Shown here: one piece after another, positions 8,659 to 42,690 of the stretch | Position numbering within the stretch: the first letter of the stretch is position 1 | Layout of the letters: each line of letters opens with the position of its first letter | Origin: Bacteroidia bacterium | Lineage (GTDB): Bacteria; Bacteroidota; Bacteroidia; NS11-12g; UBA9320 | Length of the DNA stretch: 43,689 nucleotides | NCBI GenBank assembly: GCA_017857855.1 | Contig: JAFMCI010000014.1 | Span: 1-43,689 of the forward strand | Direction of reading: 5' to 3' | Notes under the pieces: generated by a model | Databases searched by the model: none | What the model saw: the letters and a program-made list of their open reading frames with translations, nothing else | Told to the model about the DNA's origin: nothing | Position numbers and translations under genes: made by a program

Positions 8659-8688
8659 TTTGTACCATAAGTCAAATTATTATATTTG
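8659..8688 (+). promoter_or_regulatory. Promoter of the lectin-like adhesin gene
   Basis: TTTG (8659-8662), an 18-nt spacer and TATATTTG (8681-8688) form one of the two best two-part Bacteroidota promoters in the window. The box overlaps a possible TTG start at 8686, which argues for the later start at 8704. Confidence 0.7.
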
Positions 8689-8703
8689 TTTGAAATTACA
8701 ATT

Positions 8704-10752
8704 TTGAGGCTTATAAAAGAACGTATTCTTCTTACTTTATGCAGCATTTTATTGGTGTTTGTTTCCAATGGCCAATCTTATTTTGCGAATGGGAATGCAC
8801 GTTCTATTGGTGGCAGTTGTTATCAGCTAACTTCGGCTGCCAATTGGCAATTGGGTTCAGTTTGGTATGCTGATAAATTGGATTTAGCAAAGGATTTTGA
8901 CCTGGAATTTGAATTGAATTTTGGCAACAATAACGACAATGGAGCCGATGGAATCGTATTCGTTATGCAAACAGTGGGAACAAAAGCCATAGGTGCATCG
9001 GGAGCAGGTATAGGCTTCGAAGGCTTTTCGCCTAGTTTTGGGATTGAATTTGATACTTGGCAAAATACCAATTTTGATGATATGGCGAGCGACCATATTG
9101 CGATGTTTAAAAATGGAAGTGTAGATCATAAGAGCTCAAATAGTTTAGTAGCTGCTACGACTGCCATTTCGGGTGGTGCAAACATAGAAGATGGTAAAAA
9201 TCACTTGGTTAGAATAACTTGGGATTTTTCAGATAAACGAATTCAGGTTTATTTTGACTGTGTTTTACGTCAAACTGCCGTTATAGACATTCAGAACAGA
9301 ATTTTTTCGGGGAATAATCTTGTTTATTGGGGATTCACCTCTGCAACAGGTGGGTCTAACAATGCGCACTTAGCTTGTTTGAGTGATGATATTATTGTGC
9401 AAGATACTTTCGCACTCTGTAAAGGGGAAACGGTATTGCTCAACGCCAGAGAGAGTAAGAATAATAGTTACGTCTGGACACCCAATCTTTATTTGGATGA
9501 TGGAACTATCAAGAATCCGGTATGCTCATCTGTGGTTCCGATAACCTATTTTGTACAATACACAGATCGATGTGGAAATCAGTTGCGGGACACTGTTGAC
9601 GTAGTTATTGATCAACCTTTTGTTATGGACGAGGGCAAAGACAGTTTGTTGTGTGATGGTGCAAAGTATTTGTTTAACTTAACCAATGCCTATGATTCGG
9701 TTTTATGGCAAAATGGAAATCGTTCATCTTATAAGTTCTGGGATAGATCCGGATATTACACCTTAAGAGCTTGGAAAGGAGTTTGTTATGACGACGATTC
9801 TTTTAATATTACTACGAACGAAAGTCCGACTATTGCGATTTCTGGCAAAAATATTTTTTGCGAGGGAGATTCTGTGGAGTTAAGTGTAACGGCTACTCCA
9901 ATTGATGCTGTTTTTACCTGGATGAACGGGAGCAATGCGTCAACTTATTTTTATGATAAAAGTGAAATAGTTTCTGCAAAAGCAACTAATGAGTGCGGCT
10001 CTGTAGAAGATTTTTATGGTATCCGGGAAGTAATACTCCCAGATATAAATCTAGGTAAAGATACACTCAATTGTAAAGGTGATTCCTTGTTGTTAGATCC
10101 TAAGATTGCAGGACCTTATACGTACAGGTGGAATACTTCAGCTAATAGCTCTACTCTCAAAGTAGGTGCAGGGGGCACTTATTGGCTTGAGGTTTCGGAG
10201 TTAGATCTTTGTTATGCATCTGATACCATTAATGTTATCGAAATTAATAAACCGCAACTTGGATCTCTTAGTGATATAATACTTTGCAAGAATGAGTTGA
10301 TAGAGATAGCCATTGATAATAAATATGGGATGGTCTTATGGAATAATAATGTAGAGGGAGAACGTTATTCACTGCTGAATTATCAAGGAAAATTATCTGT
10401 AAAATCCTCCAATGAATGCGGTACTGACAGTAATGAAATCGAGGTGAGTTTAATAGATTGTTATTGTAATCTTCTATTCCCTAATGCAATAACTCCTAAC
10501 GCAGATCAACTTAATGATCAATTTAGGCCCACGGTAGATTGTCCCAAACTAAGAGATTTTACGATGAGTGTATATAATAGATGGGGAGAGCTACTTTTTA
10601 CGAGTACCGACGTGAATAAGACATGGGATGGTTCATATCAAGATATCATGGTTATGAATGGAGTTTACTATTGGATCGCGGTATGGAGTGGAATAGAAAA
10701 CGGTCAAATAGAAAGAAAAGCTGACAAGGGCATCTTACATGTTATCCGATAG
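8704..10752 (+). CDS. Secreted L-type lectin-domain adhesin with T9SS type B sorting domain
   Basis: This 682-aa protein (TTG start chosen downstream of the promoter box) has a signal peptide ending near SNGQ (about residue 25). An L-type (legume-like) lectin domain spans about 27-245, with GADGIVFVMQ, FGIEFDTW and HLVRITWD. Five repeats of about 65 residues follow. Each has the pattern C-x-G-(D/E)...YxW, typical of Ig/PKD-like modules in Bacteroidota surface proteins. The last 90 residues form the type B sorting domain: FPNAITPNADQLNDQF, YNRWGELLF, TWDGSY, GVYYWI. It should cross the inner membrane by Sec and the outer membrane by T9SS, and act in carbohydrate binding or adhesion. The sugar target is unknown. 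Confidence 0.87.
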   Translation: MRLIKERILLTLCSILLVFVSNGQSYFANGNARSIGGSCYQLTSAANWQLGSVWYADKLDLAKDFDLEFELNFGNNNDNGADGIVFVMQTVGTKAIGASGAGIGFEGFSPSFGIEFDTWQNTNFDDMASDHIAMFKNGSVDHKSSNSLVAATTAISGGANIEDGKNHLVRITWDFSDKRIQVYFDCVLRQTAVIDIQNRIFSGNNLVYWGFTSATGGSNNAHLACLSDDIIVQDTFALCKGETVLLNARESKNNSYVWTPNLYLDDGTIKNPVCSSVVPITYFVQYTDRCGNQLRDTVDVVIDQPFVMDEGKDSLLCDGAKYLFNLTNAYDSVLWQNGNRSSYKFWDRSGYYTLRAWKGVCYDDDSFNITTNESPTIAISGKNIFCEGDSVELSVTATPIDAVFTWMNGSNASTYFYDKSEIVSAKATNECGSVEDFYGIREVILPDINLGKDTLNCKGDSLLLDPKIAGPYTYRWNTSANSSTLKVGAGGTYWLEVSELDLCYASDTINVIEINKPQLGSLSDIILCKNELIEIAIDNKYGMVLWNNNVEGERYSLLNYQGKLSVKSSNECGTDSNEIEVSLIDCYCNLLFPNAITPNADQLNDQFRPTVDCPKLRDFTMSVYNRWGELLFTSTDVNKTWDGSYQDIMVMNGVYYWIAVWSGIENGQIERKADKGILHVIR

Positions 10753-11904: not shown

Positions 11905-13212
11905 TTAGTCGATTACAGATATTTTTTTACTTGTTACTGCGTTTCCTGCTTTTACATTGTAAATGTACATCCCAGGAGTCAAGCCAGAGATGTTTGCATC
12001 TACTTTGTGCTCACCGCTGGTGTAATAACCGTCTACTACGTCCATTACTTTGTTGCCTAAGATGTCGTATATAGCGATGCTTACGTCAGAAGCATTTACC
12101 AAATTGAAATCAGCCATAAGGTTTTCAGTTGTAGAAACTGGATTAGGGTATACACCAAAAGTGATGTTGTTATCTAATTTTTCAGTACCTAAAGTTTGGG
12201 TAGTGATGTGTACACCATAGTTTAGGTACTGATCACTGAAGTAAGCGTTTCCTGGTATACTATTTTCCCATCCATTGATGTTACCACCATAAATGTGCTC
12301 ACTACCTACCCACCATGAGTTGTTGACATACTCTTTTTGTGCTATTTGCGTAGTTGAACCATTACTGTACAGTGAGTGTCCGAAGTAATTTAATTTTTTG
12401 GTAACGTTTGCACCATTTCTAGCTTCCATTGTATCTCCAAGGCTATAAGGAAGCATTGTTTTAAATGAAATCATAAAACCAAAAACGTTTTGACCAGTAA
12501 GAGATGGATCTGCAGGCATATTGAAATTAGCTGGAAGAGGTACTATTCTACCTTTTGAACCCCATCCTTGATCAGAAGGAGCAGAAGTCGAATCTGCATC
12601 TGTCAATGGAATATTCATGGTATAAGCAGCATTATTTGCACCCATTAAGCTTTTTGTGAAGTTTGTATTTTTCATAAAAGTCTCAGGATCAGCAGCATTA
12701 AAAGAACCCTTAACTAAGTTAGGGAATTTAAAAAACTGAACTACTAAAGTATCCACAACTTTAACTTTACCAGCACCTAGGTCGATTGAATCTACATATC
12801 TTACGTAAATGTAAGGAAAGTAAACAGAGTCAACTGTATAGGCATTGTATCTAGACAAGATAGTATTATCGTCAGATAACTCTAAGTTTGGATCGTTTGG
12901 AGTGAAAGCTGCGCCTACTGCGTGAGTGAACTGGAAATATGGATTGCCCGAAGCTGGAATGATCTTTACAACTGAATCTGGATATAAAAATCCTACATAT
13001 CTATCTAAAGTAGTTAATTGACCTACAACATCTGCAGGGAATTTCCAATTTGCATAAAAAGCTTTTGCTTTGTTATTTGAGGTAGGATCTTGAGACATTG
13101 GTATCTCGTGTGCTCTTTCTCCTTTTACCTTAACCTGCTGTTGTGCAAAAGTAGGAGCCACTACTGCTGCTAGTAAAAAAGTAAATGCTAAACGTTGTAA
13201 TGTTCTTTTCAT
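11905..13212 (-). CDS. Secreted protein with T9SS type A sorting domain
   Basis: This 435-aa protein has a clear Sec signal peptide (KRTLQRLAFTFLLAAVVAP, cleavage after TFA, about residue 23). About 300 residues of unrecognised, beta-rich sequence follow. The end is a type A sorting domain of about 80 residues: FGVYPNP, then a Val/Ile-rich strand pattern with YDILGNKV, GEHKVDANISGLTPGMY and the basic end VTSKKISVID. It should be exported by T9SS and attached to or released from the surface. The middle part has no motif I can assign to an enzyme. It is a single-gene unit between a terminator and its own promoter box. Confidence 0.85.
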   Translation of the reverse strand: MKRTLQRLAFTFLLAAVVAPTFAQQQVKVKGERAHEIPMSQDPTSNNKAKAFYANWKFPADVVGQLTTLDRYVGFLYPDSVVKIIPASGNPYFQFTHAVGAAFTPNDPNLELSDDNTILSRYNAYTVDSVYFPYIYVRYVDSIDLGAGKVKVVDTLVVQFFKFPNLVKGSFNAADPETFMKNTNFTKSLMGANNAAYTMNIPLTDADSTSAPSDQGWGSKGRIVPLPANFNMPADPSLTGQNVFGFMISFKTMLPYSLGDTMEARNGANVTKKLNYFGHSLYSNGSTTQIAQKEYVNNSWWVGSEHIYGGNINGWENSIPGNAYFSDQYLNYGVHITTQTLGTEKLDNNITFGVYPNPVSTTENLMADFNLVNASDVSIAIYDILGNKVMDVVDGYYTSGEHKVDANISGLTPGMYIYNVKAGNAVTSKKISVID

Positions 13213-32063: not shown

Positions 32064-34055
32064 ATGGTTAAATTATCGAGGCTTTTTTTAGCCGTGACAC
32101 TCTTGCTACAGGCTTTTGTAGGCTTGGCTCAAGAGAAGGAAGTGTTGATTGATTCTGTTCCGTCAGTTGCTTTAGATGAGGCTGTGAATGACGCAATTGA
32201 AGCCGTGGAAGCAGCGCTCAACGAATCTGCACCTAAAAAGTCGACCAGCGCTGTTCGAGGATTAGGTTCTTCTGCACACGTAAGTGATGTCACTATTAAT
32301 GATGTAGATACAGTGCACCTTTACGATACCAGTTTTAGTGGTTTACACATACTTGATAGTGTGGTTGGGAAGTACAGTATTTTCATGACCGGAGAAAATC
32401 ATACCTATACAGAAAGTAATGCTCGTCTTTGGCTAAAAATGATAAAGTACTTGCATGCAAAAGCTGGTGTACGAAACATTATGTTTGAATATGGTTTTTC
32501 ATACGGTTACTTGGTGAATGAGTATTTGCAAACAGGTGATTCGGCCTTGTTTTCTAGTATAGATCAATTTGCGTACGATGAGTATAGTTCGGTTATTAAA
32601 GATTTAAAAGACTTTAACGATAGCTTGCCTGAAACTCAAAAGCTATATTTTGCTGCTATCGATATTGAACGAGGGGTTTATCCTATCGTGAAATTATTAG
32701 ATAGACTTCTTCCTCCGCAAAGTGTAGAGATGGATGATAGTCTATATGTAGATGTTCAAAGTCTCCGCAGTTTGGCGAGCTATAATGATTTTCAATTAGA
32801 TAAAGAAGATGATCCCGAAAATCAAAGTAGTAGAGGTTTTATGTTTAAAACGGGAAGTTCTCTTAGACTATTACATCATAATTTTTTACGTAATGAAGCG
32901 AAGTTTAAAGATTATTTAGGGGCTAATTTTGATCTTTTTAAGCGTGTCATTATATCTAATTATAATGCACTTCACCAGTGGGAGGAATATGAGGAAAATA
33001 ATACGGTACAAGAGTATATTTATAGAGAAGACTACATGCACCGCAGATTTTTAGAAGAAAAATCTTTGCATCCAGGAAATTGGTTTGGTCAATTTGGCCG
33101 ATGCCACACTACACAAGAATTGCAGTCTAATAACTCTTGCGACTGGTTTGTGTTTAACAGTTTGGCCAATAGGATAAAACACACCAAAGGCGGTTTGTAT
33201 ACCAATCAATTATTGACACTAACGATGGTATATGATGACGATAGAGATTTTGGTGCAGACAAGGTGTATGCAGAAAAAATGCTAGATAAATATTTTTATG
33301 CTATGCCCGAAAGTAGTCTTTACCTCGTAGACATAAGAACAGATTCTGCGCTAAATGTGGCTTATGGTACCGATTTTAATTATCTGATATTGAATACCAA
33401 AAAAGAGCGCGGAACTGCCTATTCGTATTTAAATGCTTCTGCTGACAATAGCAATTCAGACAAAATGAAAATAACCTTGGGCGCACGTCTGCAGCGTTTT
33501 GATTTGCGTAATTTAAATCAGCGATTTTCAGATGAAGGTGGCTTAGAATTGTTTTCGGAGGACAAAACGGCTTCAGAGTTCGGATTTTTAACTACAGATG
33601 GGAAATTTAAAAATGCAACAGCAATAGGGTTTTGGTTTTCCGAAGATGTACAAATTGCTGCTAATACTTATAGCTTAAAAGGTTTTTATGCTACTAGCTA
33701 TTATCTGATGGAAATGCTAAAAGAGAAATCTTGGGTAGATATTTTTCCAGGTATAGGAATGGGCTATAGCAAGCTTAAATTAAATACGGAAGAAAGTTAT
33801 AATGGGACGTTGCTATTACAAGATGGGTTTTTAGGTGAGACTAAGCTAACGCAATATGTGAATGATGCCTTTACTCTGGATGCGACCTTAATGGCTGATT
33901 TGAATTTAGGTTGGTTTACCTTGGGTTATCATACTGGTTATTGCGTCGATGTATCCAATAAACTATGGAAGTCGAACAAAACACATCTCAATCTTTCACC
34001 AGAAGTGTCCCTTGGAGGATTTTATCAAACATTAAAGCTTGGCGTAAACTTTTAA
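32064..34055 (+). CDS. Exported protein with esterase-like GExH domain and beta-rich C-terminus
   Basis: This 663-aa protein has a signal peptide (1-23). After a variable linker, residues 100-450 resemble the erythromycin-esterase/ChaN/TraB-type fold: TGENHTY (E111, H113), MFEYGFSYG (E142, 31 residues after E111) and GQFGRCHTT. This assignment is tentative. From about 470 to the end, alternating-strand, aromatic-rich sequence ends in LKLGVNF. This resembles a partial outer-membrane beta-barrel with its terminal Phe. If right, it is a hydrolase-like domain joined to an outer-membrane part. It is 9 bp after the DPP IV gene and probably co-transcribed. No activity can be assigned. Confidence 0.78.
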   Translation: MVKLSRLFLAVTLLLQAFVGLAQEKEVLIDSVPSVALDEAVNDAIEAVEAALNESAPKKSTSAVRGLGSSAHVSDVTINDVDTVHLYDTSFSGLHILDSVVGKYSIFMTGENHTYTESNARLWLKMIKYLHAKAGVRNIMFEYGFSYGYLVNEYLQTGDSALFSSIDQFAYDEYSSVIKDLKDFNDSLPETQKLYFAAIDIERGVYPIVKLLDRLLPPQSVEMDDSLYVDVQSLRSLASYNDFQLDKEDDPENQSSRGFMFKTGSSLRLLHHNFLRNEAKFKDYLGANFDLFKRVIISNYNALHQWEEYEENNTVQEYIYREDYMHRRFLEEKSLHPGNWFGQFGRCHTTQELQSNNSCDWFVFNSLANRIKHTKGGLYTNQLLTLTMVYDDDRDFGADKVYAEKMLDKYFYAMPESSLYLVDIRTDSALNVAYGTDFNYLILNTKKERGTAYSYLNASADNSNSDKMKITLGARLQRFDLRNLNQRFSDEGGLELFSEDKTASEFGFLTTDGKFKNATAIGFWFSEDVQIAANTYSLKGFYATSYYLMEMLKEKSWVDIFPGIGMGYSKLKLNTEESYNGTLLLQDGFLGETKLTQYVNDAFTLDATLMADLNLGWFTLGYHTGYCVDVSNKLWKSNKTHLNLSPEVSLGGFYQTLKLGVNF

Positions 34056-35128: not shown

Positions 35129-37054
35129 TTAGTCTTCTAGTTCCATGATGGCTTCAAGTAAGGCATCACATTCCGTGGTAATTGACTTTATACTTGCTGT
35201 AGAAGCTGCATACTCTTTACTCAATGACTCAAAGTCTTCTGGCGTTAAATTGGCAGCCTCTGCTAACTTGGCTTCAAGGGAAGCCCCATGAGATTTAGCA
35301 TTCTTTAATTGCTCTTCTTTGCCATCAAGCTGTTTCTGTAACTTTTTGACCTGTTCTATTTTTTCGTCTTTTTGTTTCCAGGTGTTTTTACTATCAACGC
35401 TATTTTCAGAAGAGCTTACGCTTGTTTTTTTGCGCACTTCTACTTTGGGTGGATTCAGTTTATCTTGCTCGAGCTTGTAATTATACTCATGGTATGTGCC
35501 CGGATATTCTTTAACCTCTTCATCTTCTATCCACCAAACTTTATTCGCTAATTTCTCTATGAAATATCTATTGTGCGATACAAATATGAGCGTTCCTTCG
35601 TAGCGCTTTAATGCTTCGATGATAATCTCTATACTATCAATGTCGAGGTGATTTGTAGGCTCATCCAGTAACAAGAAGTTAGCTTCGCTAACCAGTGTTT
35701 TAGCTAATGAAACCCGCGCTTTTTCACCACCACTTAGTACTTTTACTTTCTTAAATACATCATCACCAGCAAATAAGAAACAACCCAGCATGCTACGCAA
35801 TTCCATGTCTGTTTTATGTGGGGCATCGTATTGTAATTCTTCTAGAATCTCATATTCCATGTGCAAGCTTTCTAGCTGATGCTGCGCATAAAATGAAGGA
35901 ACTACATTGTGCCCTTGCTTACGTTCCCCGGTAAAAGGAAGCTCATCTGCTATAATACTAAGAAAAGTAGATTTACCTGTACCATTAGCCCCAATTAGCG
36001 CAATTTTATCACCACGTACTATTTCGCGATTTACATCATCAAATAGAAGTTTGTTATTAAACCCTTGCGTAATCTTATTGAGCTCCATGACTACCTTGCC
36101 GCTTTGCTTGCCTACTTTAAAGTCTATTTTAAGGTTAGATTTATCTTCTTGAATAACCTCAATTTTTTCTATTTTCTCGACCATTTTCACCCTAGACTGA
36201 ACTGCCTTTGCTTTACTCGCTTTAGCTTTGAATCTATTGATGAATTTTTCTTGTTCCTTAATATACTGCTCTTGGTTGGCTGCTTGTCTTCCAATCAGAT
36301 CATCTCGCTCTACTTTGGCTTGAAGATAAAAGTCATAGTTACCATCCCATAAGTAAAGCTTGTTGTTACTTAACTCAGCCGTTTTATTGATCATTTTATT
36401 CAAAAACTCTCTATCATGTGATACAATAATCACACTGCCCGGATAGCCGCTTAGGTAGTTTTCTAACCATTCAATACTAGGTAAGTCAAGGTGATTGGTA
36501 GGCTCATCCATGAGCATAATGTCTGGTTCTTCCAATAGCATTTTGGCCAATACTACTCGCATACGCCATCCACCAGAGAATTCTTGCATAGGACGACTAA
36601 GATCAGCGGTTTTAAATCCTAGACCTTCTAGAATTTCTGCCGTTTTATTGTCCATATTGTAACCGTCAAGCGCATCAAACTCCTCTTGGTAATCGGCCAT
36701 ACGTTGTATGTTTTCGTCACTAGGATCGGTCTCTAGCAAGGTGTAGAGTTTTTCTAATTCAGCACCTAAAAACATGGCTCTTTTAAATGCACCTTTAGCG
36801 TGTTCTAAGATAGTTTGATTACCATCTTCACTAATCATATCTTGAGATAGATATCCTAGATTTACACCGCCTGCTTTATTGATAGAACCCTCTCGTATAT
36901 CGTATTTGCCCATTATGAGTTTGAGCAATGTAGATTTACCTGCACCGTTCTTACCTATCAGGCCGATACGTTCACGTGGTTTTATAAACCAGTCAATGTC
37001 TCTAAAAAGGTAATTACCGCCAAACTCAAAGGATACGTTTTGTAAATGAAGCAC
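35129..37054 (-). CDS. ABC-F family ATPase
   Basis: This 641-aa cytoplasmic protein has two ABC domains and no membrane segment. The first Walker A is GKNGAGKST with signature FSGGWRMRV. The second is GANGTGKST with signature LSGGEKARVSLAK. A helical linker of about 80 residues joins them (RFKAKASKAKAVQSRVKMVE), and a coiled-coil C-terminal extension lies at about 545-641. ABC-F proteins act on ribosomes (for example EttA, Uup or antibiotic-protection types), and the exact member cannot be told. The start is GTG at 37054. A TACCTTTG box lies 19 nt upstream. Confidence 0.92.
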   Translation of the reverse strand: MLHLQNVSFEFGGNYLFRDIDWFIKPRERIGLIGKNGAGKSTLLKLIMGKYDIREGSINKAGGVNLGYLSQDMISEDGNQTILEHAKGAFKRAMFLGAELEKLYTLLETDPSDENIQRMADYQEEFDALDGYNMDNKTAEILEGLGFKTADLSRPMQEFSGGWRMRVVLAKMLLEEPDIMLMDEPTNHLDLPSIEWLENYLSGYPGSVIIVSHDREFLNKMINKTAELSNNKLYLWDGNYDFYLQAKVERDDLIGRQAANQEQYIKEQEKFINRFKAKASKAKAVQSRVKMVEKIEKIEVIQEDKSNLKIDFKVGKQSGKVVMELNKITQGFNNKLLFDDVNREIVRGDKIALIGANGTGKSTFLSIIADELPFTGERKQGHNVVPSFYAQHQLESLHMEYEILEELQYDAPHKTDMELRSMLGCFLFAGDDVFKKVKVLSGGEKARVSLAKTLVSEANFLLLDEPTNHLDIDSIEIIIEALKRYEGTLIFVSHNRYFIEKLANKVWWIEDEEVKEYPGTYHEYNYKLEQDKLNPPKVEVRKKTSVSSSENSVDSKNTWKQKDEKIEQVKKLQKQLDGKEEQLKNAKSHGASLEAKLAEAANLTPEDFESLSKEYAASTASIKSITTECDALLEAIMELED

Positions 37055-37106: not shown

Positions 37107-37397
37107 TCAACCTAAAAAATATGCAGACAGGTAATAAATCATGGCTAAAACTAACACAAGGATCACTATGCTAATGGTTCTGTTTTTACGATTTCTGTCT
37201 TCAATGTAGCTTCTAGCGCGTCTTCTACCTTCTAAAATTTGTTCCTTGCTAAGCTGGCTAGTAGCATGTGCTTCCTGATTTCCGTTTCCTACGTATTGTT
37301 CTTTTAGCTTTTTAAAGCGATTAGCTGAACGTTTTCTTAGGAGTCCATTCTCTTTTAACGAATTGTTCATCGCACTTGAATGTCCACCAAAACTCAT
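37107..37397 (-). CDS. Small membrane protein with basic N-terminus
   Basis: This 96-aa protein begins MSFGGHSSAMNNSLKENGLL, a start I associate with small conserved Bacteroidota proteins. It continues with a basic region (KRSANRFKKLK and GRRRARSYIEDRNRKN) and ends in one transmembrane helix (TISIVILVLVLAMIYYLSAY). It is probably an inner-membrane protein with a cytoplasmic basic part. I do not recognise its function. Its own TATATTTG box lies only 4 nt before the ATG, so the mRNA should be leaderless or nearly so. Confidence 0.78.
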   Translation of the reverse strand: MSFGGHSSAMNNSLKENGLLRKRSANRFKKLKEQYVGNGNQEAHATSQLSKEQILEGRRRARSYIEDRNRKNRTISIVILVLVLAMIYYLSAYFLG

Positions 37398-37481: not shown

Positions 37482-40400
37482 TTAGTCTTCCAAATCTAAC
37501 TTGGTTAAGAAATTAGCGACAGACCGAGGACTGGCAGTTTTTATCCTAAACTTGCCATTTGTCATTTTAGGCCCTTTTTCTTTAATAATATCATTAAACT
37601 CTTTGTCGGTACTGGCTACGGTTACACTACCTAAGTAGTAATCGATGTAGAACCAATCATACTTGCTTACTTCGAAGTACAGCGTGTAACGCGCAGTGCT
37701 TCTTCGTTTGGTAATGACTATTTTGGCGTTTATGGTTTTATTAACTTGATTACCATTTATAGTAGCAATCTGTACAGGATCAGTTGCAATAAACTGGCGT
37801 TTACTGGGAACATAAGCTATAGACATTTTGCTGATAAAAATATTCCTATCTAAATCTCCTTGGGGTTTTATTTCACCTGTACTAGATGTGTTCTCAATAG
37901 CCTTATTTAGTTTTTTGTCATCTAAGTATTCTGCCATTGCATTATAAATAAACTCATCACTGTTATCGGCAACGGGATTACCACTGCCGTTGTTTTTCAT
38001 TACTTCGATTATTCTGGTGTAGCATTCCTCGGGCAGCTTTATATTAAGTGCTAGAATACTATTTAGGGTAAAGGTTGAATCTGCTTTTTTCTTAACCAGG
38101 TTACCTGCCATCAAGCCACTGAAGTTGTCATCTACTTCTAGCCCAAAGTTTAGTTTACCTTCACTGTATACCTCACCAGTTGCGTCATTAAACGACAGGA
38201 AACTCCCTCTTCTGCTTCCTTCAAATAGTTTCATGCTGTCTCCTACAATAAAACAATTTGAAGTCTCATCATAGTAAAAAACACCTGTGTCTGCAGTGAT
38301 ATCCATGTCAGCATAACTTCGTTTAAAGTTAAACATGGTAGGATAGATGTGGGTGCTATCATTGGCTAAACTAACCGCGGCATACATCTTACGCTGGTCT
38401 TCGTTTTTGATTTCTCGGGCGGGAATTATAATATTACTAGGATCAGGTCTTTGGTTGTACCTAAACCAAGCACTTGGCCATTCTGTCAAACTATGGAGCG
38501 GTTTAACATAGCCATTAAATACGATATCCTGGTTTATACTACTTAATTCAGTTAGACCTTTAAAACCTATTTTAGGGCTTACTTTAAAACCTGAAGAGTC
38601 TGCCACCGTTCCAGTTGCGATTATAGAAGAATCGGTTTTGCTTACTACACGAATTTTATCAAAGTACAACACTTGATTGGTTCTGTGCTTGTCTTTGTAT
38701 TTGTAACTTGCAGCGCCACTTAGCGCATATCTTCCAGCTATTTTAAGTTTTGCATCAAAAAGTTCATGGTTTTTATTGTCGCGAGACGCTAGCATTTTTG
38801 CTTTTTGCAAAGTTTGCATATCCGCATTTTCTCTTATTTCTATTTTTTCGTTATATGGAAAAACTCTACTGTCTGCCACGTCTATATGAGGTACATTTTC
38901 TGCATAAATAATACCTTTCTTCATGTCAAAAAGGGCTTTGGTACTCTCAAATCTCAAGCCTTGTTGAGCCGGGTCCTTGCTTATGAAAATAGATTTTTCT
39001 TTAGCTAGTTTAGGACCTTTATTGAGCTCAATAGTTTGTTTATTCATGTCCCACTTATATTCATCCATGGTGCTCGCATATGCATTGAAAGGGAAGTCGG
39101 TTAATTTTCCAGTTTCGTTGGCTTTAAAGTCCCCAATTCTAGTGGTAAAATTAACATCAGAAGCAACATTATAGGAGGCGAAGGCTATTTTGTCGCTTGA
39201 TATTGCACCTATTTCTATTTGAGATATTTTAGCTTTCACTTCGTTAGGTTTAAACTTCATGTCGGCAGAGGTAAGCTTAGCTTGGTCCCATGATAAGACA
39301 CCGTTTCCTGCTAATTGTGAGCTTGTTTGTATCAGATTTCCTTGAAAATCTTGTTTGTCACGTAACACTTTTACGGTATGCCCATTGGTATTTACAAACA
39401 TGCTATCCTTGGCAGGAAGCCATTTGGTCATTACATTCATAGCATATACATTTGGGTAGCGTGAATTTTCATCTATACTATATGAATCAGCATTTGCCAT
39501 GGTATAATCTGGCGCAAGCACAATATCTTGGGAGCTTATAGTTGCCCCTTGATATTCAATATTCCCTTTTGCTGTAAATCCTTCTTCGCTCAGTTTTATG
39601 GCTATGTCAGCACTACCTTTGCCTCCATACATGGGGTAGGTGGTCATTGATTTTTCGAAACCAAGTGAGTAATCATCCATAATTTTTGCTTCAAATCTAA
39701 AGTTAGGCAAAATGCCTCCAGCTATAAACTCACCGGGGAAACTTAACTCTGATGTCGTAAAATTATCCATGTTTTCTATGGTGAATGGATCTACTTCAAA
39801 TCGAAAGCGCTCCTTATCGTAAGCGCCGCCGTGTATGCTTTTTTTGTCATAGGCAATTAAGGCCCCTTTTTTACTGGTAAATCTGGGGTATTCCGGAAAA
39901 TTTTGAAGTCCAGATTTATTCGTTGATCTATCTATTTCCAGTGTTCCATTTATATCTCTCAATACAGATTTTACGGCAACAAGCCCAGGTCTCCCTGTGA
40001 AATCTTCGGTGAAAATTACCATGGAATCTATCTTATTTGAGCTTATATCAAAGTCGTAATAGTCAAATGAAAATTGGCTTGAATAAAAATCAAACTTACC
40101 TCCGGTTAATCTTCCACCAAAAGTCATATTTCGATTGTGTTTCAAAAAGACCATCTGTTCATGTGGAAAAGCGTATACGTTTTGGCTATCGCTGAATCGG
40201 AATGCTCCAACTCCTTCTAATACTAAATTATTACTGATAAGATCCAAGTAAGCATTAGGTCTAGCGGAAATAGTAGACGCGAATCTGATGACGTCGTAAT
40301 CTGCTAGTTTCATATGGGAGAGTACGGCATGATCTAACTTTTTACGCACTTTGATGGTATCTGTATTGGGATTAAAGAAAATGTAACCATTGTCAGCCAA

Positions 40401-41870
40401 GTCTACAATTTGAGCTTTAAGGTAAACAGGTTGACTCTCCATCCATTGGGCGTATTCTGTAAAGGTAAATTCGCGCTTACGGTATCTAATTACAAAGTCG
40501 CGCATTTTATTAAGAGGATGATACTTAAGCATTCCTCGTGGTATTTTTTCGTAGCGAAATTCCTTATAGAAATCATTAGACTCAATAATGGCTTTGGCTT
40601 CTTCGCCAGTCATATCAAACTCAATTTTAGGCAGATCAAGTCTCCAAATCACTTGATCTACGTACATCTCTACTTGGTGGTCGGTATTGAAAAAGGGTGC
40701 CATTTCTAGCCCTTCTTTTCCTCTGGTTAGAACCAATACTTTTTTTTCTAGGTTCAAATTAAAGTTAAGCTTAGGGTGAAAAATAGTTCCACTGTCGCTG
40801 TAAATTACTACTTCACTTTCTTGAGCAGTTATTTTTCCTTCCTTAAGACTGAAGTACTCTGACTTGGCCGTTACTCTAATCTTATTTTTATACTTTATCG
40901 AAACCGTTGCTGGAGAAAGCGCAGATCCATTAGCGACAATTTCTGCTCCTTGCATGGAATAGCCTCCGGTAAAAACTACCGTCTTATCCAAGTAAGAACC
41001 TAGCTCTAGATCTTTTCTAAAAGAAGAGAATTGAGGAAATTTTGATTTTTGTAGTGCGTCGTCATCTACATTTTTTGCGCTAGATAATCGGTCTTTAAAC
41101 GTACCATAGAGTCCAGTTGATAAAAAATCTTTATTGATAAAAAGTACGGAATCCACATTTAACTCTGCGCGATTAAACTGAACCACATAATTACTTATTA
41201 TTTCCGCATATATATTATTAGGTCCAAATCCTGCTCGTTCCCAGGTTACCTTGCCTTTTTTACCTTGCCATTCGTCCGTGTCTAAATAATAACTGCCGGA
41301 TGTATTGTATATCCTAAGCTTATCAGATGCTGCTTGGCAAAACAAATCCACATCCTTAAAGGCTATTTGAACCCTGTTATTATCAAAATTAAATCGATAA
41401 TTATTTGTGGAGGTATACCATATTTTAGATTCAGAAGCATAAATAATATTTTCTTTAAATAAATTTTTAGAGGCGTTTAGGAGCGTTAGAAATGTTTTAT
41501 TTCCATTTTTTATAGCCGGAATAAGTGCCTTAGACCAATTGATGTATTTTGCTTCGTCAATAGAATCTTTGGCATAAAGCATCGTTTCGGTGAATAATAA
41601 GAACGTCGGTATGCGCAGCTCGTTCATCAGCATCAGGTTAGCGACTTCCATGATATTTCGTTGCTCGGGTAATACAAATTTTCCAGAATCCCACTTGGTT
41701 GTAAATTGCTTGAGAATTTCCTTCGATTCAATGGTGTTGTCTGATTTTATGAAATCCGTAAACTCATTGATAAAAACTTCAGGCTTTTTAGAGAACGAAC
41801 GTGGTTGTCCAAATGCTATAGCCTCAAAAAAAAGCAGGAGTAGGGTTACTAGGAATTGTTTTTTAGCCAT
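37482..41870 (-). CDS. Large exported beta-rich protein of unknown function
   Basis: This 1462-aa protein has a signal peptide (KKQFLVTLLLLFFEAIAFGQ). The first 150 residues are helical and contain FINEFTDFIKS, KQFTTKWDSGKF and TMLYAKDSIDE. The remaining roughly 1300 residues alternate short beta strands with turns (for example DYDVIRFASTISARPNAYLD, FSFDYYDFDISSNKID), suggesting repeated beta-solenoid or OstA/AsmA-like folding. There is no T9SS tail and no enzyme motif I can see. I start at ATG 41870, which leaves 4 bp to prmA. The longer frame from 41927 would add 19 residues before the signal and overlap prmA. Such proteins appear widespread in Bacteroidota. Its location is probably periplasmic or outer-membrane associated. 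Confidence 0.85.
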   Translation of the reverse strand: MAKKQFLVTLLLLFFEAIAFGQPRSFSKKPEVFINEFTDFIKSDNTIESKEILKQFTTKWDSGKFVLPEQRNIMEVANLMLMNELRIPTFLLFTETMLYAKDSIDEAKYINWSKALIPAIKNGNKTFLTLLNASKNLFKENIIYASESKIWYTSTNNYRFNFDNNRVQIAFKDVDLFCQAASDKLRIYNTSGSYYLDTDEWQGKKGKVTWERAGFGPNNIYAEIISNYVVQFNRAELNVDSVLFINKDFLSTGLYGTFKDRLSSAKNVDDDALQKSKFPQFSSFRKDLELGSYLDKTVVFTGGYSMQGAEIVANGSALSPATVSIKYKNKIRVTAKSEYFSLKEGKITAQESEVVIYSDSGTIFHPKLNFNLNLEKKVLVLTRGKEGLEMAPFFNTDHQVEMYVDQVIWRLDLPKIEFDMTGEEAKAIIESNDFYKEFRYEKIPRGMLKYHPLNKMRDFVIRYRKREFTFTEYAQWMESQPVYLKAQIVDLADNGYIFFNPNTDTIKVRKKLDHAVLSHMKLADYDVIRFASTISARPNAYLDLISNNLVLEGVGAFRFSDSQNVYAFPHEQMVFLKHNRNMTFGGRLTGGKFDFYSSQFSFDYYDFDISSNKIDSMVIFTEDFTGRPGLVAVKSVLRDINGTLEIDRSTNKSGLQNFPEYPRFTSKKGALIAYDKKSIHGGAYDKERFRFEVDPFTIENMDNFTTSELSFPGEFIAGGILPNFRFEAKIMDDYSLGFEKSMTTYPMYGGKGSADIAIKLSEEGFTAKGNIEYQGATISSQDIVLAPDYTMANADSYSIDENSRYPNVYAMNVMTKWLPAKDSMFVNTNGHTVKVLRDKQDFQGNLIQTSSQLAGNGVLSWDQAKLTSADMKFKPNEVKAKISQIEIGAISSDKIAFASYNVASDVNFTTRIGDFKANETGKLTDFPFNAYASTMDEYKWDMNKQTIELNKGPKLAKEKSIFISKDPAQQGLRFESTKALFDMKKGIIYAENVPHIDVADSRVFPYNEKIEIRENADMQTLQKAKMLASRDNKNHELFDAKLKIAGRYALSGAASYKYKDKHRTNQVLYFDKIRVVSKTDSSIIATGTVADSSGFKVSPKIGFKGLTELSSINQDIVFNGYVKPLHSLTEWPSAWFRYNQRPDPSNIIIPAREIKNEDQRKMYAAVSLANDSTHIYPTMFNFKRSYADMDITADTGVFYYDETSNCFIVGDSMKLFEGSRRGSFLSFNDATGEVYSEGKLNFGLEVDDNFSGLMAGNLVKKKADSTFTLNSILALNIKLPEECYTRIIEVMKNNGSGNPVADNSDEFIYNAMAEYLDDKKLNKAIENTSSTGEIKPQGDLDRNIFISKMSIAYVPSKRQFIATDPVQIATINGNQVNKTINAKIVITKRRSTARYTLYFEVSKYDWFYIDYYLGSVTVASTDKEFNDIIKEKGPKMTNGKFRIKTASPRSVANFLTKLDLED

Positions 41871-41874
41871 TCGT

Positions 41875-42690
41875 CTATTTAAATTTAAACTGGGTTTGAA
41901 GCCAATTATTTGCAATATTTTGTTCAATAAGTATCAAATTATGCGCTTCAGCTGCAAGCACCAGTTGGTCGATATCCGTATCTATAAATCCACATAGTAT
42001 TAAATGTCCGTCCGGATGGAGTTTCTGCGCAAATTCTGGTAAAAGCTTTAAGTTTATGTTTTTAACAATGTTACTTACTATAACGTCAAACGTTTCGTTT
42101 AGATGTGCAATGCTGTCTGCTTGCAATATCTCAACGTTTGCTGCCGCATTTAATTGTATATTCTCTCTGGTGTTCTCTACGCAATGTATATCATAATCAA
42201 CGGCTAGTACGCGAGAAGCTTTTTTCTGTGATGCTAAAATGGCCAATAGTCCACTTCCGCATCCCATATCCAGCACAGTCTTGCCTTGGCAGTCTAATTT
42301 TTCAAGAGATATAGCGCTTAATTGTGTAGTTTCATGATGTCCTGTTCCAAAAGCCATTTTGGGTAATATGATTATGTCGTGCTTTACCTCTTTGGCGGGA
42401 TGAAATGGAGCACGTGAGTGAATATGTTCTCCAATGTCTGCATCCTTGAAATTATCTTCCCATACTTGATTCCAGTTCTGATCTTTCTCTTCGCTTATCT
42501 GTTCCGCTTTTAGTCCAAATTGGTTCAATATATCGCTTAGTGCGAGTTCATTAAATTGACCTGAATTGCAGTAAGCTATTAGGTTTCCTTGTTCATAAGA
42601 GGTGCCATCAAAACCGTTTTCTTGAAGTAAAAACGAAACTGTTTCTTCTAAATCTTCGTTGCATTTAATGTGTACTGCAGTGTAGCTCAT
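41875..42690 (-). CDS. prmA: Ribosomal protein L11 methyltransferase PrmA
   Basis: This 271-aa SAM-dependent methyltransferase has the PrmA pattern. A substrate-recognition N-terminal domain (1-100) is followed by KMAFGTGHHETTQL and motif I DMGCGSGLLAILASQKK, then LAVDYDIHCVENTREN (acidic ribose-binding residue) and VSNIVKN (NPP-like position). It methylates ribosomal protein L11. It is immediately upstream of the 1462-aa protein (4 bp), so the two are likely co-transcribed, without a functional link that I know. Confidence 0.92.
   Translation of the reverse strand: MSYTAVHIKCNEDLEETVSFLLQENGFDGTSYEQGNLIAYCNSGQFNELALSDILNQFGLKAEQISEEKDQNWNQVWEDNFKDADIGEHIHSRAPFHPAKEVKHDIIILPKMAFGTGHHETTQLSAISLEKLDCQGKTVLDMGCGSGLLAILASQKKASRVLAVDYDIHCVENTRENIQLNAAANVEILQADSIAHLNETFDVIVSNIVKNINLKLLPEFAQKLHPDGHLILCGFIDTDIDQLVLAAEAHNLILIEQNIANNWLQTQFKFK

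Follow-up and report, generated by a model that had tools for sequence, protein, structure and literature searches.

The largest open reading frame in the window (the whole 43,689-nucleotide stretch of DNA analysed here) lies at 37,482-41,870 on the minus strand and encodes a 1462 AA protein which, from the reading frame, its distribution and structural models, is predicted to be exported and to have an Lpt-type beta-jellyroll fold. The reading we favor, at about even odds (roughly 0.5), is that it is a single-chain, multi-unit jellyroll of the Lpt type, transporting a lipid-like cargo within the periplasm; the lipid-transfer role is proposed by analogy with known Lpt proteins. Little is known of how lipids are delivered to the Bacteroidota outer membrane, and a gene combining an LPS-bridge fold, a dN/dS near 0.04 and a presence in most of the class offers something concrete for work on envelope lipids.

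The frame starts with an ATG at 41,870 and stops at 37,482-37,484; stops are found throughout the plus strand over the same interval, and an alternative upstream TTG start would add 19 residues, inside prmA. That gene (41,875-42,690, minus strand; PF06325, E 1.1e-47) ends 4 nt before the ATG on the same strand, and the two are probably cotranscribed. A promoter and terminator scan gave a site count not above that in shuffles. The sequence-only reading had described a 1462 AA frame, the largest in the window and adjoining prmA, and the ORF listing and the prmA assignment bear this out. The frame is not a chance one, as relatives are present in 39 of 40 near genomes and dN/dS is 0.04-0.05 against two relatives, 94-96% identical; the gene is under strong purifying selection.

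That reading had further claimed a signal peptide, a helical start, repetitive short strands and no assignable motif, all of which held up. The N-terminus (about residues 1-22; 41,805-41,870, minus strand) carries an export signal by its pattern, with a hydrophobic helix modelled at residues 2-20; of the 81 aligned sequences, 74 show an AxA-Q-like cleavage pattern and 3 a lipobox-like one. It looks like a cleaved signal peptide. It is followed by a predicted helical domain at residues 30-140 (41,451-41,783, minus strand), with six helices and a pLDDT of 79-91 in model A1. Pfam yielded no family for the protein (best chance match, E 0.07), nor did NCBIfam, so that it is unnamed in both, and phmmer found no match among PDB sequences. 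None of 32 members matched the OstA/LptA/LptD, LptD_2, TamB or AsmA Pfam families at E 0.1.

AlphaFold models were built from 72-sequence alignments for residues 1-960 (A1) and 500-1462 (A2), with mean pLDDT of 90.1 and 90.6 and pTM of 0.59-0.68, values that leave the long-range shape of the modelled protein uncertain. Some 90 strands over 1304 residues were counted from the two models. The strands are amphipathic, the mean even-odd hydropathy difference being 2.24, against 1.65 in shuffles, of which 2 in 1000 reach the observed value. The earlier impression of an OstA/LptD-like or AsmA/TamB-like scaffold proved apt in its first half at the level of fold: in VIA-align, the first 17 matches to residues 1-960 are all Lpt proteins (LptD N-domain, LptA, LptC), and so are the first 15 to residues 500-1462, Z running from 8.5 to 13.8 across the two lists. 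Among these is 4q35, which bears just the title "Structure of a membrane protein" and which we take to be LptD. Foldseek likewise returned LptD (E 6.8e-6), LptC (probability 1.00) and LptA (probability 0.99, TM-score to target 0.5-0.6); in a first run ApoB100 ranked above LptD. AsmA and TamB folds are absent from both VIA-align lists, which carry no weight against such a fold.

The Lpt/OstA beta-jellyroll is present in the models at residues 281-546, less an insert, and at 830-1020, and the fold of these two units is well supported by the modelling. Unit 1 (residues 300-600; 40,071-40,973, minus strand), delimited by VIA-align and by hhalign to unit 2, gives LptD 8h1r_A (Z 11.4, 136 residues, 3.0 Å) and LptC 6mit_C (Z 10.9) over its 281-546 region, while in unit 2 (residues 835-1045; 38,736-39,368, minus strand; VIA-align) residues 830-1020 match LptD 9a39 (Z 13.8, 156 aligned, 3.2 Å) and residues 837-966 match LptA 2r1a_C (Z 11.4, 120 aligned, 2.7 Å). 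Once the insert is left out, unit 1 can be aligned with unit 2 over its full length (hhalign probability 98.0, E 2.3e-13, 181 columns), against maxima of 13.3 among 91 reversed pairs and 3.2 among 91 shuffled ones; at the level of profile comparison this demonstrates an internal duplication, and the profile search for repeats suggested beforehand turned up statistically real ones. A partial repeat at residues 747-815 (39,426-39,632, minus strand) resembles the opening part of unit 2 (hhalign probability 96.7, E 3.5e-10, 69 columns); repeat tests are weak for regions 142-280, 600-740 and 1046-1440. The C-terminal part (residues 1281-1462; 37,482-38,030, minus strand) consists in model A2 of three helices, then strands and two helices.

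Splitting unit 1 is an 84-residue winged-helix insert (residues 437-520; 40,311-40,562, minus strand), present in all 81 aligned sequences and identified by VIA-align (1ub9, Z 8.1 over 436-658; 1s3j_A, Z 7.2 over 436-522) together with weak PDB and Pfam profile matches to winged-helix families. A winged-helix module within an Lpt jellyroll is an unusual combination of domains and could reveal how such bridges dock. The most conserved block in the 81-row conservation profile follows it, at residues 520-780 (39,531-40,313, minus strand), with the motifs DYDVI, SDSQ, IDxSxNKSG, DPF and DxSLGF and with polar invariants or near-invariants at D524, D526, S560-D561-S562, D647 and N651-K652-S653-G654. 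Such clustered polar invariants exceed the needs of a passive lipid groove and would suit a structural or enzyme-bearing envelope protein in which the jellyroll is a rigid rod and this block the functional site; no catalytic family was matched in Pfam, NCBIfam or profile searches, however, and we consider this improbable.

Likeness in fold to Lpt proteins does not prove the same function, and the differences from them are substantial. The protein shares its beta-jellyroll with the LptD N-domain of E. coli and relatives (9a39, 8h1r, 9ia0), but has several units rather than one domain, carries the winged-helix insert, and lacks an LptD_2 Pfam match, profile similarity and an identified C-terminal barrel. 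LptA and LptH (2r1a, 4uu4; Z 11.4 and 10.4) are also exported jellyrolls; LptA is one jellyroll that oligomerises, whereas here two or more units, together with helical and winged-helix parts, make up a single chain. LptC (6mit chain C, 4b54; Z 10.9 and 10.1) has an inner-membrane helix, in contrast to the N-terminus seen here, with its look of a cleaved signal peptide. The LptA-like protein of Bacteroidota, OstA_2 (PF13100), exported and presumably a jellyroll, is encoded in the same genomes by a separate gene (C8 in the source genome, G000), its products being mostly about 500-600 AA. Against alignments of Bacteroidia OstA_2 and the LptD N-domain the 1462 AA protein gives hhalign probabilities of just 0.5-4, where OstA_2 against LptD gives 46.7, and a sequence relation to either is not detectable.

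With the LptD N-domain, LptA and LptC as its nearest folds, the protein might be accessory to LPS export itself, either as an additional bridge particular to some lineages or in place of LptC, feeding the canonical LptA or LptD. OstA_2, however, occurs in 144 of the 149 class genomes, and every one of the 32 genomes tested for LptD_2 (13 carrying the gene, 19 lacking it) has that domain, so several lineages export LPS without this protein; the source genome has its own separate LptD_2 gene (G000 C9). We regard an accessory role of this kind as quite unlikely.

The description of a conserved giant protein of no known role stands for most of the class Bacteroidia, where the gene was found in 129 of 149 genomes, but conservation is not universal, 20 of 149 being without it. 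It is missing from all three sampled genomes of family f53 and from 34 of the 118 genomes of f16, the other 84 having it. The names of these families are inferred (f16 approximately Chitinophagaceae, f33 Bacteroidaceae, f53 Flavobacteriaceae), only that of f53 having been checked; the whole 517-residue SprA domain of f53 aligns with PDB 6h3i (E 5e-267), the Flavobacterium johnsoniae protein. In other Bacteroidota outside the class, a profile search gave no convincing relative. Profile matches in three genomes (G088, G182, G256), read by eye as two pentapeptide-like channel proteins and one FG-GAP-like repeat protein, were judged chance. Among the papers listed by the literature searches, none was recognised as describing the protein family. 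That the Flavobacteriaceae-like family and one whole f16 clade lack the gene may be why it has been overlooked. The lineages without it form a natural comparison set.

Of the 129 class genomes carrying the gene, 128 have SprA, and 5 of the 6 SprA-negative genomes lack the gene, as would be expected if the protein belonged to the type IX secretion system (T9SS). Such a link looked promising in the class sample and failed in f16, where all 34 of the genomes lacking the gene have SprA; in the class, 15 of 143 SprA-positive genomes are without it. We regard membership of that system as extremely improbable. Since the gene occurs in genomes that also have complete sets of LptA, LptD and TamB, and is absent from whole lineages, it is neither part of the Lpt core nor required for the T9SS.

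TamB- and AsmA-like proteins, reported to be very long periplasmic beta-groove proteins of about 1500 AA with roles in outer-membrane lipid or protein homeostasis (PMC12045153; PMC8593681), are another point of comparison; the protein studied here differs in having no such Pfam match and a signal-peptide pattern rather than a membrane anchor, and TamB has a gene of its own in the source genome (G000 C89). A TamB-like chaperone or scaffold for outer-membrane proteins or lipoproteins would use the open jellyroll edges to take client beta-strands, and open-edged beta folds of this size can work by strand augmentation; Bacteroidota TamL-TamB has itself been proposed to act on outer-membrane proteins and not lipids (PMC12045153). 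Two or more TamB-type genes are also commoner without the gene than with it, both in f16 (33/34 vs 48/84; Fisher 6e-6) and in the class sample (16/20 vs 32/129, counted by hand). On a tree of 120 SprA domains (113 from f16 and 7 from outside; 5 of the 118 f16 genomes, G368, G391, G402, G447 and G449, were left out for a missing or broken SprA match), however, the f16 absences form one clade (33 of 34) plus one fragmented genome, G416, and thus a single loss event, and replacement of the gene by TamB copies was dropped along with that statistic. With Lpt proteins as the best fold matches, the chaperone role is judged unlikely.

In the lipid-carrier reading that we prefer, the exported protein would form one long periplasmic chain of Lpt-type (OstA) jellyroll units, with the N-terminal helical domain and the winged-helix module of unit 1 as probable docking surfaces. 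The open jellyroll, on the analogy of LptA and LptD, would present a hydrophobic groove in which a lipid or another amphiphile has its acyl chains shielded as it is handed across the periplasm; this would add to the canonical LptA-LptD route and the TamB of the same genomes. The units may be stacked into one continuous groove; with two units, a partial third and some 90 strands in all, the length would come to roughly 21 nm on the assumption of two facing sheets throughout. The protein may reach from membrane to membrane. No partner, membrane anchor or ATPase linked to it was found. The protein may be an extra, undescribed lipid bridge. In Borrelia, Lpt-type bridges have been proposed to carry cargo other than LPS (PMC10353723); here the cargo may be a lipid. 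More tentatively, most Bacteroidia might possess a third trans-envelope lipid route, apart from Lpt and TAM, in which stacked Lpt-type jellyrolls in one polypeptide span the periplasm alone, dock through the winged helix and carry, for example, a phospholipid or a Bacteroidia-specific lipid.

Of 48 copies of the gene, 25 have prmA immediately upstream in the same orientation. In 18 of the 48 the next same-strand gene is plsY, which encodes the first acyltransferase in phospholipid synthesis, an adjacency only suggestive of a link to lipids. The neighbours as a whole (prmA, tpiA, plsY, clpS) are mostly housekeeping genes.

The giant gene runs on the minus strand from an ATG at 41870 to a stop at 37482 and encodes 1462 aa, beginning 4 nt past prmA; the sequence-only reading had given the same coordinates, length and prmA neighbor. 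That reading could assign no motif to it, and single-sequence searches gave no Pfam family (best E 0.07) and no match in NCBIfam or the PDB. When 32 diverse members were scanned, no family matched in more than one of them, and several of the one-member matches were to winged-helix families: TFIIE_alpha (E 9.6e-5), HTH_Crp_2 and HTH_IclR.

Two overlapping structural models, of residues 1-960 and 500-1462 (72 sequences each), have mean pLDDT values of 90.1 and 90.6 and pTM values of 0.68 and 0.59, respectively. Both the helical start and the strands proposed from the sequence are seen in them: a signal helix is followed by helices at 30-140 and then by strands to about residue 1420, with helical interruptions at 437-519 and about 1281-1331. 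Using VIA-align, Lpt proteins take all of ranks 1-17 for the first model, with a winged-helix regulator at rank 18 (Z 8.1), and ranks 1-15 for the second, where CPAP TCP10 domains (Z 8.4) come next; these Lpt rows include 4q35, titled merely as a membrane protein, which we take to be LptD. The top match is LptD 9a39 (Z 13.8, 156 aligned, 3.2 A), and LptA 2r1a_C (Z 11.4, 120 aligned, 2.7 A) and LptC 6mit_C (Z 10.8-10.9) are also matched. Foldseek ranks LptD first for residues 500-1462 (E 6.8e-6) and fifth for 1-960, where ApoB100 is first. The early impression of an OstA/LptD-like protein holds for the fold but not for membership by sequence; profile comparison with LptD_2 and with OstA_2, the LptA-like family of Bacteroidota, gave probabilities of 0.5-4, with no detectable membership, while those two families recognize each other at 46.7.

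The sequence had also been described as repetitive, and windowed hhalign on an 81-row alignment of the protein gave strong self-matches. Unit 1 (residues 300-600), without its winged-helix insert (437-520), matches unit 2 (835-1045) end to end over 181 columns (probability 98.0, E 2.3e-13), and still does so at 96.1 (E 2.8e-9) with the insert included; residues 747-815 align with the beginning of unit 2 at 96.7. The highest probabilities among 91 reversed and 91 shuffled control pairs were 13.3 and 3.2. For regions 141-300, 600-740 and 1046-1440, similarity to the units was weak or absent. The insert is found in all 81 rows. These self-matches lend independent, sequence-level support to units 1 and 2 being, by their profiles, the same kind of domain, with the predicted winged helix inserted into unit 1.

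The gene is conserved, as had been claimed. It is present in 39 of 40 near relatives and in 129 of 149 genomes of an even sample of class Bacteroidia, the identical 129 being recovered by protein and profile queries, and dN/dS values of 0.039 and 0.049 in two comparisons indicate strongly purifying selection. A phylum sample of 198 genomes gave 10 matches within the class and one beyond; this last proved spurious on inspection. By these searches the two samples therefore identify a Bacteroidia gene, cleanly absent from some families. In one family, apparently Chitinophagaceae, the gene is present in 84 of 118 genomes; a tree of 120 SprA domains (113 from this family) groups 33 of the 34 genomes without it in one block, which thus represents a single loss, the remaining one being a fragmented genome, 94% complete (G416). 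The clade with the clean loss (33 sampled genomes) can be used as a natural knock-out group. A second family, apparently Flavobacteriaceae, has a SprA that very closely resembles the one in PDB 6h3i, and all three of its class-sample genomes are without the gene. The giant gene is not a requirement for the T9SS.

OstA_2 and TamB are each found in 144 of the 149 class genomes and LptD_2 in all 32 genomes tested (13 with the giant gene, 19 without), with all three present in the window's genome; since they are so widely present, the giant protein is no replacement for any of them. Genomes lacking the giant gene seem to have extra TamB-type genes, a pattern set aside as not being independent evidence.

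Among 48 copies of the gene, with neighbors identified by Pfam, the gene immediately upstream and on the same strand is prmA in 25 and tpiA in 4, and plsY lies immediately downstream in 18, though these counts are not independent, since eight of the other loci examined share the window's genus or are close to it. The adjacency of plsY hints at phospholipid biology; that of prmA, tpiA and clpS gives no such pointer. In the window, a 96-aa ORF (37107-37397, minus), in which inspection by eye shows a single hydrophobic C-terminal segment, directly follows the giant gene, and an ORF of comparable size (102 aa) follows the copy at another locus, L050. Also in the window, an ABC-F type protein (35132-37054, minus), in which an ABC_tran_Xtn linker accompanies two ABC ATPase stretches, has no apparent link to the giant protein.

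The Lpt jellyroll is a beta sandwich, open on one side, that holds acyl chains inside. Several such units in one exported chain, apparently lacking a membrane anchor, could form a periplasmic bridge or shuttle, docking perhaps through the helical N-domain and the winged helix. The predicted strands are more amphipathic than shuffles, and a rod of all 90 strands in two facing sheets would be about 21 nm long; this is near the width of the periplasm. This role is inferred by analogy, and candidate cargoes would be phospholipid, a Bacteroidia-specific lipid, LPS-related molecules or protein clients. A Borrelia study (PMC10353723) proposes an Lpt-type system for glycolipids in that LPS-lacking genus, so the fold need not imply LPS.

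Some other copies have distinctive features. Genome G064 carries two tandem copies (locus L063, 5600-14889, minus), 77% identical over 1548 aligned residues. Two single-contig genomes, G116 (locus L078) and G093 (contig 1), have the gene broken across several frames, probably by sequencing errors, since relatives in the same families are intact. Close downstream of the gene at locus L073 (12910-19278, plus) is a second giant protein of about 2100 aa, whose sole match is PD40 and whose family is found in 8 examined loci. Elsewhere in the window, a 663-aa ORF (32064-34052, plus), flanked by a DPP IV-type peptidase and an Omp28-type protein, matches nothing in Pfam at E 1e-5. Two proteins are likely T9SS cargo: one of legume-lectin type that bears a CHU_C sorting domain (8686-10749, plus) and one with Por_Secre_tail (11908-13212, minus).
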